Below, one piece after another: positions 301-9,149 of a stretch of 64,000 nucleotides of DNA. The DNA is from Deltaproteobacteria bacterium (GTDB taxonomy: Bacteria > UBA10199 > JACPAL01 > JACOUP01), in contig JACOUP010000008.1 in assembly GCA_016177765.1 (NCBI GenBank), positions 767,165 through 831,164 of the forward strand, read 5' to 3'. Position numbers and translations under genes: made by a program. The notes below the pieces were generated by a model. It did no database searches, was not told where the DNA came from, and saw only the letters and a program-made list of their open reading frames with translations. Position 1 is the stretch's first letter, and each line of letters begins with the position of its first letter.

Positions 301-1209
301 TCGTTGTTCTATCGTTGCCCTTCTGTCTTCATACCCGGCCGGGTCGTAGTGGATCGTGACGTGGGAGTTTGGGATCCGGTTTTCGATGGCAAGCCGGAGC
401 GATTCTGTCAATTCATGGGCCTCTTCAAAACTCTTGGCCCGGTCGACATCGATATGGAATTCAATCAGCTTCCGTGATCCGGAGCGGCGGGAACGAAAAT
501 CGTGGTAGTCGGTAATGTGGGGTTGGTAGCCTCGAATAATGGTATTCACCTCTTCCCGGTAGTGGTACGGGAGCGCCTTGTCCATCAACTCATCCAAGGC
601 CTCTTTGGCCAGACGACCGGCTCCCCAAAGGATAGAAAGGGTGAGCCCGAGGCTCACTATCGGGTCAATGAGTGTCCATCCGGTCTGCTGGATCAGGACC
701 AGTGCGACAATAATGCCGGTGTTGGTAAAGATGTCGGTCGCGTAGTGAAGGGCGTCCGCCTTCAGGGTGAGAGATTCCGTTTTTGCCGCTGTCTTCCGGA
801 GGTATCGGACAAGGATCAGGCTCACCACGATCGAAAAAACCATCATCCCGATCCCGAGCGGGATCTGGCTTAATTGTTCATCATGAAGCATCCTTTGGGT
901 AGCGGCGTAGATCAGCGCCCCTGCCGAGGCAAAGATAAATAAGGATTGGAAGAGGCCAGCCAACCCTTCCGCCTTGCCATGCCCAAAGGGGTGGTCTTCA
1001 TCGGCCGGTTTGTCGGCGATCCGTATCGAGAGGTAGTTGACCAGTGAACTGAAGAGATCCAGGAGCGAATCGAGGGCCGAGGCGATCAGGGCGAGGGAAT
1101 GGCTGGCCACCCCAACGGCCAGCTTTAAAATAAAAAGGGCCACGGAGACCCCGACGGAAAAGAGGACCGCTTTTTTCTTTCTCCCTTCCGGTGTCAACGG
1201 ATGTTGCAC
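292..1209 (-). CDS. fieF: Cation diffusion facilitator family metal efflux transporter (FieF/YiiP-like)
   Basis: Inner-membrane divalent metal/proton antiporter that exports zinc or iron. Numbering from an upstream TTG at 1245, the DxxxD of TM2 (D59, D63) and HxxxD of TM5 (H167, D171) reproduce the tetrahedral metal site of E. coli YiiP. The loop DEDHPFGHGKAE is almost the YiiP sequence. Six membrane segments are followed by a cytoplasmic ferredoxin-like domain with HxxxH-type residues (HVTIHYDP). A GTG at 1209 has AGAGG seven bases upstream and is preferred; the TTG at 1245 would add 12 residues. It is divergent from yjbQ. Family is certain; the preferred metal is not. Confidence 0.9.
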   Translation of the reverse strand: MQHPLTPEGRKKKAVLFSVGVSVALFILKLAVGVASHSLALIASALDSLLDLFSSLVNYLSIRIADKPADEDHPFGHGKAEGLAGLFQSLFIFASAGALIYAATQRMLHDEQLSQIPLGIGMMVFSIVVSLILVRYLRKTAAKTESLTLKADALHYATDIFTNTGIIVALVLIQQTGWTLIDPIVSLGLTLSILWGAGRLAKEALDELMDKALPYHYREEVNTIIRGYQPHITDYHDFRSRRSGSRKLIEFHIDVDRAKSFEEAHELTESLRLAIENRIPNSHVTIHYDPAGYEDRRATIEQRLK

Positions 1210-4700: not shown

Positions 4701-6002
4701 GGGGGAGGGGATTCTTCCGCCCTGGTAACCAAGGTCTTGAGAGAGATCGAAGAACTGGCCCAGCGGGTAGAGTTGCCGAGGACAGACGATTCTAACGTGG
4801 CCTATGCCACCAGGGAATTCGAATTAAGCCGCGCCTTCTTAACGGATCTTCTTCAAGAAGCGCAGACCAATCCTGATACAGCCTTGGCGAGCCTCGTCCT
4901 TTCTGTCGCCTATTCGGTGGATCGTCAGAGGGATACCGTTGCTCTGCTCCGAGGAGAGGCAAGGACAACACCCTCTTTGTTGGTGACGCGTATGGATCAA
5001 AGACCGGTTGTGGAGACAAGGTCTTATGCTCGTTTATCGGATAATATTTTTTGGGATCGACGTCGCCTCAGTTATCTGGAAGGACGGTTAGCGGGAGGAG
5101 TTCCTGTCGAAGAACAGCGGTTTTTTGAAAACCAGAGGGATAAAGCAGGCTGGGATCTCGTCTCTGATCTTCGTGTCCTTATCAGAGAACACCGGGAGAA
5201 ACTGCTCGTCTCTGTTGAGGGAAGGGGCGCCTTGGATGGCCACCTCCGAGAATTTATTGCCGCTTTGGATCGTCACGTGGCGGTGCTCCGAAGGGTTCGT
5301 CCGCTCCTCGAAAAGGGGGATAGAGATCTCTTCAGAGGTTTCCCGAGTGGTCTTGCCGGTCTGGATCAGGAGTTGGCAGACTGCGCATTTGATCTTGAGA
5401 GGGCGAGGGGTTTGCTCGCCATTCTTCAGGATCCACCCTATGGCCCTGGTTCCCCTTCCACCCCGACTGCGGCAGGGGGTTCAGCGGCACCGGTGGCCCC
5501 TGCCTCGCCTGCGAGTCAAGGCGGGCCAGCAACTCCGGCCGCTTCGGCTAGTTCTATCGGTCCCGATGAATCGAATGTGAGCTATGATGTTGCCGCTTGG
5601 GCCACGCTCTGGGATGGGCTGGCTGCTGAGTCACCAGAGGTTCGTCAACGACTCAGGGTATTGACTCTTGGAGGTCCGGCGACAAGGGGTGAACTCTTGG
5701 CCGCCTATGGTGTTTCTGCCGATAAATTTGCCGCTGTTCGCGGTGGCTTGGCAATGGTAGATAACGGTTCTCTCGAGGTTGGCCTTCTCGCTCGTGACCT
5801 GGCGGCGGTGTTGGTGGCGAGCGGGTCTGACGCTGCGATGACACCGGCGGTTTTTGAACGGGCCGTTGTGAGGGGAATGAGACTCCTTGGTCCAGTCCCT
5901 GCCTCAGGGATTCCTGGCGAAGCGGGAGGTCGAGAGGGTCGTGAGCGGTTTGGTGAAAGAGGGGCTCGAGAACCACTCCCTGTCCGGGCGATTGTCCCCT
6001 AG
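1776..6002 (+). CDS. Very large unrecognised protein with an N-terminal alpha/beta-hydrolase-like domain
   Basis: About 1,408 residues; no family is recognised for most of it. Residues ~110-310 resemble an alpha/beta hydrolase: a nucleophile elbow LVTCSSSA (non-canonical, usually GxSxG), an acid in LAGDD and a histidine in GRQHEIFL, in the right order. The long middle is predicted helical and rich in Arg, Glu and Leu. Around residues 850-960 is a Pro/Gly/Ala-rich linker, followed by another helical region and a second low-complexity linker. No signal peptide or membrane segment is evident. The ATG at 1776 was chosen; a TTG at 1752 is possible and neither has a clear ribosome site. An internal ATG at 4413 has a strong ribosome site and may give a separate 529-residue product. 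Function unknown. Confidence 0.65.
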   Translation: MAGPGSIDPKAPTGSPPSVEDGDNDPSGFVELSPDPPSPGDHFLPVPDGVEVTLEDAPPVIPSGTGALLVGPTGEIIPAAPAVEEAIFEDGAGMQRGYFRFSPLSSSAGDIVVYLTGPDSHTDLSTHILIQTLTGAGFSTYTYIPPFSLDIDYHTGTLSRFLDRVRGENPGRRIHLVTCSSSAVIARRYLEESPAAVSSFVAVVPAFEITQEHAAAWERLGKPIPANIYSWPARPVETPALFILAGDDRSAINDRSLADLRDHFGGYRHHVVFPGRQHEIFLTDTGERRLAAMEVTAAVARFLLERPYEPEFPLTLHDGSGRNACFRQAITQRTQFWEGVAQIFQEVASGGIDLETAGAMFYEAHPDRAPLDRLPHYDPQGFGRLLREMMQRVDHTRYYLANTSETSRLEPSRLVERLDEIEHLLFDLANEAEIIFYGLSVYNISDATNGDRNRFFRVLHHVANILVNLVSENPEQVRNGFEQLPAVLVELRGVVGDLALVGDHAAVAVMGEGPLFPEGWSTQGDLHEEEKRVRAQLGERRALFRQVAMRRLQRFYWDHREVWPEAVRAKAAAIDRVVNHFLALQRKQDGLDVRGLVQRYLTAYPDVADYLQVTLDYYGATLNDLETLPMLLRIVIERYNTAATAIYGDITTMEHTPEETWQGLRVQVRAAAALLSLLDQIPPQEGLGNPTRVRPDILAVVRERLEAIRALIERRVLDQRPGPEPQTVYTWEEVTTLLSNLDQAWGEVVAAALLIDLSPELIARFESLRAHLGLMIAARGRYRSVSGTIHAVIYRLYTNLAELMRGAHQFPSVAGSSGAVGEEPVGERMMTEMERDLDLLDRTLAEPVSAAPAGDAERTQPLLGGADNAATGTDLKGGDMSVGTVAASLVGTSVVAQTAGNPPAGDGPVSEFPESREPAAPAGDAYLQPYVPPSFGGPERPEDYEGGGEIGERGFEPTPFFGASVVAAVRRLVARGGGDSSALVTKVLREIEELAQRVELPRTDDSNVAYATREFELSRAFLTDLLQEAQTNPDTALASLVLSVAYSVDRQRDTVALLRGEARTTPSLLVTRMDQRPVVETRSYARLSDNIFWDRRRLSYLEGRLAGGVPVEEQRFFENQRDKAGWDLVSDLRVLIREHREKLLVSVEGRGALDGHLREFIAALDRHVAVLRRVRPLLEKGDRDLFRGFPSGLAGLDQELADCAFDLERARGLLAILQDPPYGPGSPSTPTAAGGSAAPVAPASPASQGGPATPAASASSIGPDESNVSYDVAAWATLWDGLAAESPEVRQRLRVLTLGGPATRGELLAAYGVSADKFAAVRGGLAMVDNGSLEVGLLARDLAAVLVASGSDAAMTPAVFERAVVRGMRLLGPVPASGIPGEAGGREGRERFGERGAREPLPVRAIVP
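4404..4415 (+). promoter_or_regulatory. Strong internal ribosome-binding site and in-frame ATG inside the giant gene
   Basis: GGAGGAGAT directly precedes an in-frame ATG at 4413. This is a better Shine-Dalgarno than at either possible start of the whole gene, and it lies at the junction of the helical region and the low-complexity linker. It could yield a shorter product of 529 residues. Confidence 0.4.
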
Positions 6003-6406
6003 AGAGGGGACCCCAGAGAACCTTTCTGAATCTTTAGATCAGTATGCCTCGCAATATGGTTAAAATCTGAGTCATGATGAAACAGGGGCATCTTTGTCCT
6101 CATTGATAACTGCGCAATGAGACTGTCCACTGTTTTAGCTTCAACCCCTTTTTTTCTGAGATACCCTCTGAGCAATGCTGCTTCGAAGAAATCCTCTTTT
6201 TCTAGAGAGAGAAAAGGCAGGACAGAGAAGTGTTCTTTTAATACTTTGTATTCAGTGTTCCTCTCAGCACCTGAAAGGACCTCAGTAATAACTGGCCCAC
6301 AGGTTACCACTTGGTCTGCCTGAAGGAGTTCACTGATAATCTCGGCCGTGATAAGATCGGATTGATTAAGAAAATGAATCCATGAGGATGAATCAATCAG
6401 AATCAC
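5999..6406 (-). CDS. vapC: VapC-type PIN-domain toxin
   Basis: A PIN-domain ribonuclease of about 135 residues, the toxin of a type II VapBC module. The four acidic positions of the metal site are visible: the first Asp in LIDSSSW, Glu in VITEVL, Asp in TVDSLIAQ, and Asp in HHDSDF. Substrate RNA cannot be inferred. A GTG start at 6406 has AAAGGA six bases upstream and overlaps the vapB end by 14 bases; a TTG at 6421 is less likely. Tight overlap with vapB indicates translational coupling. The 3' end overlaps the end of the convergent giant gene by 4 bases. Confidence 0.88.
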   Translation of the reverse strand: MILIDSSSWIHFLNQSDLITAEIISELLQADQVVTCGPVITEVLSGAERNTEYKVLKEHFSVLPFLSLEKEDFFEAALLRGYLRKKGVEAKTVDSLIAQLSMRTKMPLFHHDSDFNHIARHTDLKIQKGSLGSPL

Positions 6407-6611
6407 GCCGCATCCTTTCAAGTTCCTTGAGTGTGAGAGTAAAATGAACCTTTCCCCCTAAACGGGCAAAGCTTTCAAGTTTCTTCTGCCTCAAAACGGT
6501 TTCAAGAGAAAGGACCACCGCCTCGGTATCCGTCTTGGCCTTGAGGATCTTTTTGACCTGGTTCAACTTGTCCTGCGGCAAGATAAATTGTTTTCGTCTC
6601 ATTTTAGCCAT
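6393..6611 (-). CDS. vapB: VapB-type antitoxin
   Basis: A 72-residue protein preceding the PIN toxin in the same operon. The N-terminal KQFILPQDKLNQVKKILKA and TDTEAVVLSLE segments fit a short DNA-binding antitoxin (ribbon-helix-helix-like); the C-terminal half would wrap the toxin. The start codon lies at the edge of a 28-bp palindrome that also holds the promoter, which suggests autorepression by the complex. No Shine-Dalgarno is present, so the mRNA may be leaderless. Role is assigned from position, size and partner. Confidence 0.82.
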   Translation of the reverse strand: MAKMRRKQFILPQDKLNQVKKILKAKTDTEAVVLSLETVLRQKKLESFARLGGKVHFTLTLKELERMRRDSD

Positions 6612-6726: not shown

Positions 6727-6876
6727 TCACTCCCCCTTGGCGGGGTTGGTGACCTTGAGATGATGTTTCGGTTTGGCTTCCTTCACCTTCTTTTTCCTCT
6801 TGGCCATGGCAGGGCCTGTTCCTGCCAAGAGGGAAGCCAGAACCGCGAAGATCGTCAGTTTCTGATAGAGCTTCAT
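6727..6876 (-). CDS. Small secreted basic protein (49 residues)
   Basis: A tiny gene with an optimal ribosome site (AGGAGGAG) before its ATG. Residues 1-25 are a standard Sec signal peptide: MKLYQKL, a hydrophobic core and a cleavage site ending AMA. The mature part is 24 residues, very rich in Lys with two His (KRKKKVKEAKPKHH). It begins two bases after the upstream small gene and shares its sigma-54 promoter. Function unknown; a periplasmic basic peptide that binds acidic polymers or metal is only speculation. Confidence 0.6.
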   Translation of the reverse strand: MKLYQKLTIFAVLASLLAGTGPAMAKRKKKVKEAKPKHHLKVTNPAKGE

Positions 6877-6877
6877 C

Positions 6878-7072
6878 TTAGTCTCCTCCTTTCTTTGTTT
6901 TATTTTGCCGGTCACGGATATGGATCCGGCCATTGACCGGGATCGCATCCAGCACGACATTGATCGAGTTGTCCTTGTTGACAAACCCGATCCCGATCCG
7001 GGTCCAGAGGTTTTTCTCCTCGCTACCCCGCTCGGTAATCGTGTAGACATCTTTGAGATTTGTCTCTTCCAT
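6878..7072 (-). CDS. Small conserved-looking hypothetical protein (64 residues)
   Basis: An intracellular protein with the segments TITERGSEEKNLW, RIGIGFVNKDNSINVVLDA and VNGRIHIRD. It reads as a compact beta-strand fold without signal peptide or membrane segment. I recall similar short hypothetical proteins in deltaproteobacteria but cannot name a family. AAAGGAGGTTTCT gives an excellent ribosome site. It is first in a two-gene operon behind a sigma-54 promoter, so expression is probably conditional and needs an enhancer-binding activator, none of which is encoded nearby. Confidence 0.65.
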   Translation of the reverse strand: MEETNLKDVYTITERGSEEKNLWTRIGIGFVNKDNSINVVLDAIPVNGRIHIRDRQNKTKKGGD

Positions 7073-7100
7073 AGAAACCTCCTTTGTAAAAGGTTGCTAA

Positions 7101-7115
7101 GCAAGAGGCGTGCCA
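7101..7115 (-). promoter_or_regulatory. Sigma-54 (RpoN) promoter
   Basis: On the minus strand TGGCACG-CCTC-TTGC matches the -24/-12 consensus (TGGCACG-N4-TTGCW), with the invariant GG and GC separated by exactly 10 bases. Transcription would start near 7089, about 17 bases before the 64-residue gene and just ahead of its Shine-Dalgarno. Confidence 0.8.
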
Positions 7116-7120
7116 AATGG

Positions 7121-7285
7121 AAAAAACCAGGGAGGGGAGGGGTCTTGAGAAGTGGCTCTCGCAGACCCTCATCACCGTGCAGCCTTAGAATCATGAGGGT
7201 CGAGAGCGCAGGCGGACTTTTTGCGGCTGTGGGGCAAAAAGGACCGCCGGCAGTTCGAGAGACTTCTCCCCTCCCTGGTTTTTTT
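7121..7285. ncRNA. 165-nt structured element, candidate non-coding RNA
   Basis: A 17-bp perfect outer stem (7121-7137 with 7268-7284) continues through AGAAGT (7148-7153) with ACTTCT (7262-7267) and CTCTCG (7156-7161) with CGAGAG (7256-7261). It encloses two hairpins: GACCCTCAT/ATGAGGGTC (7164-7201) and GGCGG..CTTTTTGC/GCAAAAAG..CCGCC (7211-7248). Both ends carry A6/T6 tracts, so either strand could end in a terminator-like stem plus U tract. CTCTCG can instead pair with CGAGAG at 7201-7206, giving an alternative fold. Size recalls 6S RNA, but the fold is a three-way junction and I cannot assign a family. It lies between the prenyl synthase end and the sigma-54 promoter. Confidence 0.45.
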
Positions 7286-7304
7286 AGGGGGAACAGTTCG
7301 ATTT

Positions 7305-7321
7305 TCGAACCGTCGGTTCGA
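7305..7321. repeat. Short inverted repeat
   Basis: TCGAACC-GTC-GGTTCGA, 7-bp arms, lies between the structured element and the tandem repeat at the end of the prenyl synthase gene. No function assigned. Confidence 0.4.
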
Positions 7322-7325
7322 TTTT

Positions 7326-7355
7326 GCTACCGGCTCCGGTGCTACCGGTTCCGGT
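7326..7355. repeat. Two 15-bp tandem units across a stop codon
   Basis: GCTACCGGCTCCGGT and GCTACCGGTTCCGGT differ at one base, and each is internally near-palindromic (ACCGG..CCGGT). The TAG stop of the prenyl synthase (7344-7342) lies in the second unit, so the last residues of the protein come from the repeat. Confidence 0.6.
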
Positions 7356-8319
7356 CGATGACGTAATTGGCCAGCGCCGTCAGCGCCTCTTTTTCAATGG
7401 AAGGCTTAAAGAGGACCAGTTCCCCCTTGGCCCGTTCGACGTACCGTTTGGCCAGGTTCAGGGTGTAACTGATCCCGTCATATTTTTGGATAATACTCAC
7501 AATCTCCTTTAAATGCCCTTCCCCCACTTCCCGGGCGATCAGGGCATCTTTGATAATCCGGACCTCTTCAGACCGCGCCTTTTTGAGGGCGATAATCAGG
7601 GGCAGGGTCAATTTTCCCTCGCGGAGGTCGGTTCCTTTCAGTTTCCCGAATTTATCCTGTTCGCTCAAGTAGTCGAGGACGTCATCGGCCAGTTGGAAGG
7701 CGATTCCGAGAGAGAGCCCGTAATTCCTCAGGGCGACGGAGAATTCTTCAGAGATATTGCCAAGGATCGCCCCGACCTGACAGGCGGTAGCGATCAGAAC
7801 GGCGGTTTTATGGGTGACAATCTGCAAATAATCCTCTTCGTTGACATCCATGCTGTTGCTCTTCGCGATCTCCAGGACCTCCCCCTCGGTGGTTTCGATC
7901 ATCGCATCGGTCACCAGTTTCAGGATCTGGAGATTTTTGAGGGAGACCAGGATATCACAGGCCCGGCAGTAGAAAAAATCCCCAACGAGGACACTGACCT
8001 GATTTCCCCACCGGGCATTAGTCGAGACCTTGCCGCGGCGGAGTTCGGCGTTATCGATGACATCGTCATGAAGGAGTGAGGCGGTATGCATGAACTCCAG
8101 GGCGGCACCAGATTGGATCGCCGCCTCCCCCTGGGAACCGGCAATTCGGGCAGAGAGGAGGGTTAAGAGCGGCCGGAGCCTTTTTCCCCCGTTTTTGAGG
8201 ACATATTCGGTGACATGCCGGACAAAAGGGACGCTGGAATGGAGCTTCAGTTGCATCAGCTCTTCAACCTTTTCCAGCTCTTCCCGGACAGGGAGGGCAA
8301 TTGGGGCGAGTTCCATCAT
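7342..8319 (-). CDS. ispB: Trans-polyprenyl diphosphate synthase (IspB-like)
   Basis: Condenses farnesyl diphosphate with isopentenyl diphosphate units to make the long prenyl tail of respiratory quinones. The first Asp-rich motif is LLHDDVIDNAELRRG and the second is LADDVLDY; GGKRLRP binds substrate diphosphate. About 325 residues, typical for octaprenyl/heptaprenyl synthases. The residues before the first DDxxD are small, which suits long-chain products, though chain length cannot be read reliably. The ATG at 8319 is chosen; a TTG at 8367 would add 16 residues and run into the start of the divergent hydrolase. It ends inside a 15-bp tandem repeat. Confidence 0.88.
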   Translation of the reverse strand: MMELAPIALPVREELEKVEELMQLKLHSSVPFVRHVTEYVLKNGGKRLRPLLTLLSARIAGSQGEAAIQSGAALEFMHTASLLHDDVIDNAELRRGKVSTNARWGNQVSVLVGDFFYCRACDILVSLKNLQILKLVTDAMIETTEGEVLEIAKSNSMDVNEEDYLQIVTHKTAVLIATACQVGAILGNISEEFSVALRNYGLSLGIAFQLADDVLDYLSEQDKFGKLKGTDLREGKLTLPLIIALKKARSEEVRIIKDALIAREVGEGHLKEIVSIIQKYDGISYTLNLAKRYVERAKGELVLFKPSIEKEALTALANYVIDRNR

Positions 8320-8366
8320 GGGGGTTTTGGATAGCCCTGTGATGGGGGAGTTGTCAAAGAGAATCA

Positions 8367-9149
8367 ATGATGTTAGTTCCCCCTCTCATGCCGGCCTGTT
8401 TACTCATCCATGGTTTTACCGCTACCCCCCCCGTCATGGGGTTTCTCAAAAAATCTCTGGAAGAGGCCGGTTTTTTCACGGTGACCCCGGCCCTTGCCGG
8501 TCATGGGGGAGACTGGCAGGGGTATGAGGAGAGTGGGTGGCCGGAGTGGTATGAGTCGGTCCGTGTGGCCTATCGGGAGATGGTGGGACGGTATTCCCCC
8601 ATTTTTGTGGCCGGCCAATCGTTGGGGGGGTTGCTCTCTTTGAAGCTGGCCCTGGATGTTGGGCCGGCGATCCGTGGGGTAACCTGTCTCGCCACTCCGC
8701 TTTATCTCGACAGTTTTCTGGCCCGATTTCTCCTGCCAGTGATCTGGAAGACACCGGTCCGTGAAGTTTACCGGTTTCAGCCCAAGTTTGGGCAGGCGAG
8801 CCTTGAAGATCCCGAGGGGTTGAGGCAATTCCGCCAATGGAGCCACCCGAAAATGCCGATCCGGGCGATTGTCAGCATCCGTGAACTTCAGGACCAGCTC
8901 CGCCCGGCACTGGGGGGATTCAAAACGCCTCTTCAGGTGATCTATTCCCGGAAAGACCCGCTTATTTCCGGCAAGACGAATCGGTTTTTCCGTGAAAAGA
9001 TCCCGGCCCAAAAGGAGTTCTTGATCTTGGAGCGGTCGGGCCATATTATCTCGATGGATTACGAAAAAGAGGTGGTTGTCCGGAAAATGGTTGAATTTTT
9101 CAAGTCGCTCAGTCACAAGGAGGATTCACCCAAAGGGAGAGAGAGATGA
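8367..9149 (+). CDS. Alpha/beta hydrolase, carboxylesterase or monoacylglycerol-lipase type
   Basis: A 260-residue serine hydrolase. The oxyanion motif LIHGFTATP is near the N-terminus, the nucleophile elbow is GQSLGG, the acid is in SRKDPL and the catalytic His is in RSGHII. The arrangement matches the Est30/thermostable monoacylglycerol lipase group. It overlaps glycerol kinase by ATGA, so it may release glycerol from acylglycerols for that enzyme; this link is inferred from position only. The C-terminal DSPKG is encoded by a partial copy of the dispersed GGGTG..CACCC element. Substrate not known. Confidence 0.85.
   Translation: MMLVPPLMPACLLIHGFTATPPVMGFLKKSLEEAGFFTVTPALAGHGGDWQGYEESGWPEWYESVRVAYREMVGRYSPIFVAGQSLGGLLSLKLALDVGPAIRGVTCLATPLYLDSFLARFLLPVIWKTPVREVYRFQPKFGQASLEDPEGLRQFRQWSHPKMPIRAIVSIRELQDQLRPALGGFKTPLQVIYSRKDPLISGKTNRFFREKIPAQKEFLILERSGHIISMDYEKEVVVRKMVEFFKSLSHKEDSPKGRER
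9121..9137 (+). repeat. Partial copy of the dispersed hairpin element in the hydrolase C-terminus
   Basis: AGGATTCACCCAAAGGG matches one and a bit units of the element in the same reading frame as in ftsI and tamB (DSPKG). Confidence 0.45.

Follow-up and report, generated by a model that had tools for sequence, protein, structure and literature searches.

A conserved sigma-54 promoter before a small-protein operon of uncultured bacteria, with a possible role in the uptake or handling of external DNA

In Ralstonia solanacearum, RpoN is reported to control competence and natural transformation needs the sigma-54 factor, the proposed target being pilA (type IV pili) (PMC4371752). The DNA receptor of natural transformation is ComEA/comE (TIGR01259, TIGR00426; HHH_3), and the genes for ArdC antirestriction and mobilisation functions form neighbourhoods in plasmids and phages. 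The locus described here differs from the Ralstonia case in having a conserved sigma-54 promoter before a ComEA-like operon; a literature search, limited to open-licence papers, returned nothing on comEA being under sigma-54 control. In relatives of this locus, the second gene resembles ComEA in its signal peptide and ComEA-type helix-hairpin-helix (HhH) domain. It falls below the full-length comE cut-off, however, and differs in following another small gene, ORF A, under the sigma-54 promoter. In the window (the whole 64-kb stretch of DNA analysed) the corresponding gene, ORF B, lacks the HhH domain. The likeness to the ArdC neighbourhoods is that ORF A relatives adjoin genes for ArdC, relaxase, MobC and DNA methylase; the proteins themselves share no similarity with ORF A, so this link is purely one of neighbourhood.

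The original prediction, made from the sequence, was of a near-perfect sigma-54 promoter 28 nt before a gene with a strong ribosome site. Both the match and the spacing were confirmed: TGGCACGCCTCTTGC conforms to the GG-N10-GC and TGGCAC/TTGC consensus, is the sole exact sigma-54 match within the window, and is separated by 28 nt, counted from TTGC, from the ORF A ATG at 7072. The features of the locus are as follows.

7101..7115, minus strand: sigma-54 promoter, -24/-12 elements TGGCACGCCTCTTGC; exact consensus, conserved at 26/30 homologous loci
7078..7085, minus strand: ribosome-binding site AAAGGAGG, read from the sequence
6878..7072, minus strand: ORF A, an uncharacterised small beta-strand protein of 64 residues, with homologues and a predicted four-strand fold
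6727..6876, minus strand: ORF B, 49 residues, signal peptide and Lys-rich tail, in the position of the relatives' HhH gene
7296..7310, minus strand: putative enhancer (activator-binding) dyad GTTCGAAAATCGAAC; the same dyad occurs at homologous operons and at other sigma-54 promoters of this genome
7316..7330, minus strand: further putative enhancer copy of degenerate sequence, GTAGCAAAATCGAAC, spaced 20 bp from the first in a tandem geometry matching that of relatives
7118..7287, minus strand: structured element of about 170 nt (predicted three-way junction, possible kissing loops), recognised by its folding z-score and its copies
7342..8367, minus strand: upstream polyprenyl synthetase gene; ORF given end to end, the true start possibly lying further in

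The polyprenyl synthetase gene is a conserved neighbour, its motifs being detected 5' of the operon in 17/30 loci by a motif test. Directly 3' of ORF B, at 5999-6611 on the minus strand of the window, a small ORF and a PIN-domain protein gene form a toxin-antitoxin-like pair.

A first search found nine ORF A loci in Deltaproteobacteria and Myxococcales MAGs, and a profile search found ORF A homologues in 30/46 genomes of the phylum. The strict motif TGGCA[CT]N5TTGC lies within 130 nt upstream of the homologue in 26 of the 30 loci; these are related sequences and do not represent 26 independent events, although their flanks differ widely. As background, the same loci contain one further motif match in 176,184 strand positions (~176 kb), and the reversed pattern has no match in their focal regions. 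Four loci have no strict motif; among these, L062 carries TGGCCCTTCCTTTGC, while L055 and L063 lack the usual next gene as well. Most of the more G+C-rich MAG loci feature a looser GGCA[CT]-N6-[TC]GC. Across the 1.92-Mb assembly of the window's own genome, TGGCACN5TTGC occurs at 18 sites, versus one for a reversed control pattern, and many of these sites stand shortly 5' of ORFs with a ribosome site, often encoding exported proteins. The original prediction had proposed a search for homologues and their co-occurrence with sigma-54 sites, and had named a promoter not conserved before homologues as grounds for abandoning it; the promoter is clearly conserved. On this comparison of sequences, the sigma-54 promoter is not a chance match, and throughout a lineage of uncultured bacteria it is the same two genes that it precedes. 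The promoter and the conditional nature of the operon are well supported.

In 26/30 loci the gene after ORF A encodes an exported protein comprising a signal peptide and a ComEA-type HhH domain (NCBIfam, Pfam). The exceptions are the window, L055, L063 (where a Dam-type methylase gene follows) and L076 (where the contig ends). The window's ORF B features an export signal, a hydrophobic N-terminus ending in AMA, followed by a Lys-rich tail, as read from the sequence. Its signal peptide weakly resembles that of L015 (41% over 29 aa, E 0.19), the likeness being confined to the first 29 residues. No HhH coding was found in any frame of the window, and a frameshift hiding the domain was rejected on this ground. 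These data suggest that ORF B is probably what remains, at the signal-peptide end, of a ComEA-like HhH gene that has lost its DNA-binding part. The predicted two-gene operon of 64 and 49 residues therefore holds in its layout and in its exported, Lys-rich second ORF, but ORF B is probably a remnant rather than an ordinary functional partner. Elsewhere the genome encodes one other ComEA-like protein (HHH_3), which has no sigma-54 site, and comEC is present in this genome and in 42/46 genomes overall.

ORF A has no relative in Pfam, NCBIfam or the PDB; neither a curated profile nor a solved structure matches it, and it lacks a signal peptide. Its structural model comprises four strands (mean pLDDT 79.7). 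A fold search with this prediction returned no PDB match at E <= 0.001 and a single uncharacterised phage protein at E 9e-4; the resemblance is to uncharacterised phage proteins only. PHROG 18187, a phage family without known function, is matched by 7/10 members of the ORF A alignment (best E 1.4e-6), with the window's own protein falling below threshold. The plasmid and phage relatives of ORF A adjoin genes for ArdC, Replic_Relax, MobC/relaxase, MobA/MobL, RepA and DNA methylase; MobA/MobL and methylase neighbours occur together, as do RepA and methylase. Through guilt by association, these neighbours and the ComEA-like partner suggest that ORF A works on incoming DNA.

Sigma-54 promoters depend on activators, and the original prediction had called for a check of upstream inverted repeats. 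These were found: the dyad at 7296-7310 and its degenerate copy belong to a motif common to relatives, and are putative activator sites. The upstream regions share the dyad GNYCGAWWWTCGRNC, present with at most one mismatch in 6/26 against 0.21 expected, and a palindromic motif search of these regions scored above shuffles; about 15/26 regions have no clear copy. In relatives the dyad stands roughly 50-80 nt before the -24 element, with tandem pairs 21 bp apart in two cases. Within the genome of the window, three perfect dyads were found in 640 kb, in stretches chosen partly around known sigma-54 sites, and each has a sigma-54 motif no more than 300 nt away. One is that of the window, and the other two lie at divergent promoter pairs. 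The pair on contig C1, which has a tandem dyad, serves lipoproteins in one direction and a CsgG operon in the other; one side of the pair on contig C2 serves a lipoprotein whose metallo-beta-lactamase domain is of ComEC type.

The C1 operon (L088:8135-12980), preceded by a sigma-54 promoter and tandem dyad, is curli-like and encodes CsgG, FHA, a TPR lipoprotein and Asn-rich exported proteins. At L090:5671-4712, the C2 lipoprotein is an instance of a ComEC-type metallo-beta-lactamase domain in a gene other than comEC; AGGCACGTTATTTGC immediately precedes the start codon of the lipoprotein gene. On contig C3, the gene of a REP-associated tyrosine transposase (L091:4276-4984) begins 13 nt downstream of a TGGCACGTTATTTGC motif; two weaker dyads lie upstream, and GGTACC palindromes flank the gene.

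Between the dyad and the promoter of the window lies the structured element (7118-7287), which folds far better than shuffled sequences (z-score -8.1). A second copy in the same genome (L090:5794-5953, plus strand) also lies between a tandem dyad and a sigma-54 promoter; at 17 predicted pairs, both partners differ between it and the window copy. Two diverged copies occur in L016 near the same operon (626-781, plus strand; 1895-1739, minus strand). Over the four copies, 180/184 cells pair and 40/50 pairs show double-sided change, figures favoured by the L016 rows having been fitted to the model. In 3/4 copies the loops of the inner hairpins look complementary when the sequences are read (CAGCC/GGCTG, CTGCC/GGCAG, CGGCC/GGCCG), and may kiss. 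No Rfam family reached its gathering score in the window, and matches elsewhere were weak and sub-threshold; a known RNA was accordingly set aside as the identity of the element. A common repeat was also rejected, as no more copies were found in ~470 kb of additional stretches of this genome or in the genome of L016, searched over 274 kb. The element may represent an RNA, a mobile hairpin or a DNA structure with a regulatory role.

We consider it rather probable that the locus represents an activator-dependent sigma-54 operon through which external DNA is taken up or handled. A signal would switch on an enhancer-binding protein, which would bind the tandem GTTCGAAAATCGAAC dyads and open the sigma-54 promoter. 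The operon would then yield ORF A together with an exported ComEA-type HhH protein; beyond the inner membrane, double-stranded DNA would be bound by the latter. Once in the cytoplasm, the incoming DNA would be acted on by ORF A, a role suggested by the relaxase, ArdC and DNA-methylase genes that adjoin ORF A relatives. The firing of the promoter, the role and cytoplasmic location of ORF A and the part played in DNA uptake are what we infer from these comparisons. In the present genome, the second gene would have lost its DNA-binding domain and the structured element would have come between enhancer and promoter; for these two reasons, the local copy of the operon may be partly decayed. The original prediction of a conditional response thus stands as far as an activator-dependent operon is concerned. 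It gave no function, and it is the genomic context that points to DNA uptake or the handling of extracellular DNA.

Several observations weaken the uptake reading. HhH proteins also act outside competence, the second ComEA-like protein of this genome has no sigma-54 site, more than half of the upstream regions have no clear copy of the dyad, and no rpoN was found in the assembly or in the genome, 82% complete, of a member of the same family. Moreover, a matrix role would fit equally well the presence of the same dyad at the CsgG (curli-type) operon and at other secreted proteins. The operon would then belong to a biofilm matrix, its activator turning on curli-like fibres along with an exported HhH protein that binds the extracellular DNA of the matrix, and no DNA would be taken up. 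This alternative draws on the tandem dyad between the divergent sigma-54 promoters of the lipoproteins and of the CsgG/FHA/Asn-rich secreted-protein operon, and on the many sigma-54 sites of this genome that precede exported proteins. We nonetheless regard it as rather unlikely, as ORF A lacks a signal peptide and has relatives in DNA-transfer contexts, while the ComEC-type nuclease domain and the presence of comEC fit uptake.

Two profile searches found no rpoN in the assembly, which the original prediction had stated would count against it; the gene was found in 28/30 genomes searched, the other genome without it being the 82%-complete member of the same family. In three relatives of the same order, rpoN lies between pyrG and hpf-ptsN-hprK, and pyrG, hpf and hprK are also missing from the present assembly, even though it is rated 96.5% complete. 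Moreover, pyrG is present in 14/14 control genomes, and this genome has eight strong sigma-54 activator matches, each with a G[AS]FTGA loop. Given the missing neighbours and the retained activators, an assembly gap is the preferred reading of the absence of rpoN, the gene probably being present but unassembled, and its loss was judged less likely; the presence of metK on contig C2 leaves the gap unproven. No GAFTGA-type gene was found in the flanks of the operon that were examined, and none of the activator genes examined has the dyad beside it. The locus could also be a dead relic, with a fossil promoter left behind after the loss of rpoN and the decay of the HhH gene; the missing rpoN and the HhH domain gone from ORF B would fit this. 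We hold it to be improbable: the assembly also lacks pyrG, hpf and hprK, as expected of a whole block left unassembled, 18 perfect sites and eight activators persist, and ORF A, its ribosome site and its promoter are intact. Taken with the tandem dyads upstream, the eight activators and the promoter kept at most homologous loci support well a conserved and so far unnamed operon of the activator-dependent kind originally proposed. The lone exact match in the window is weak evidence by itself, since matches with up to two mismatches are no more frequent there than in shuffles, but a chance motif in an operon run from an ordinary promoter is rejected as wholly improbable, the exact consensus being kept before homologues whose upstream regions otherwise differ and no sigma-70-like site lying between 7118 and the ORF A start codon.

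The preferred reading, of an operon for the uptake or handling of external DNA, can be extended further, though only speculatively. The locus could be part of a sigma-54 regulon that serves DNA capture throughout the lineage, featuring a new small-protein family shared by chromosomes and transferable plasmids and a new structured element, possibly an RNA, that may take part in control. If true, the operon would place a ComEA-like gene directly under a sigma-54 switch, where the earlier link found between RpoN and competence runs via type IV pili (PMC4371752). ORF A would define a small, widespread protein family, present in chromosomal HhH operons and in the DNA-transfer neighbourhoods of plasmids and phages, whose role on incoming DNA could be tested. 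The tandem dyad and TGGCAC-N5-TTGC would together provide a signature by which the remaining regulon and its activator may be found.
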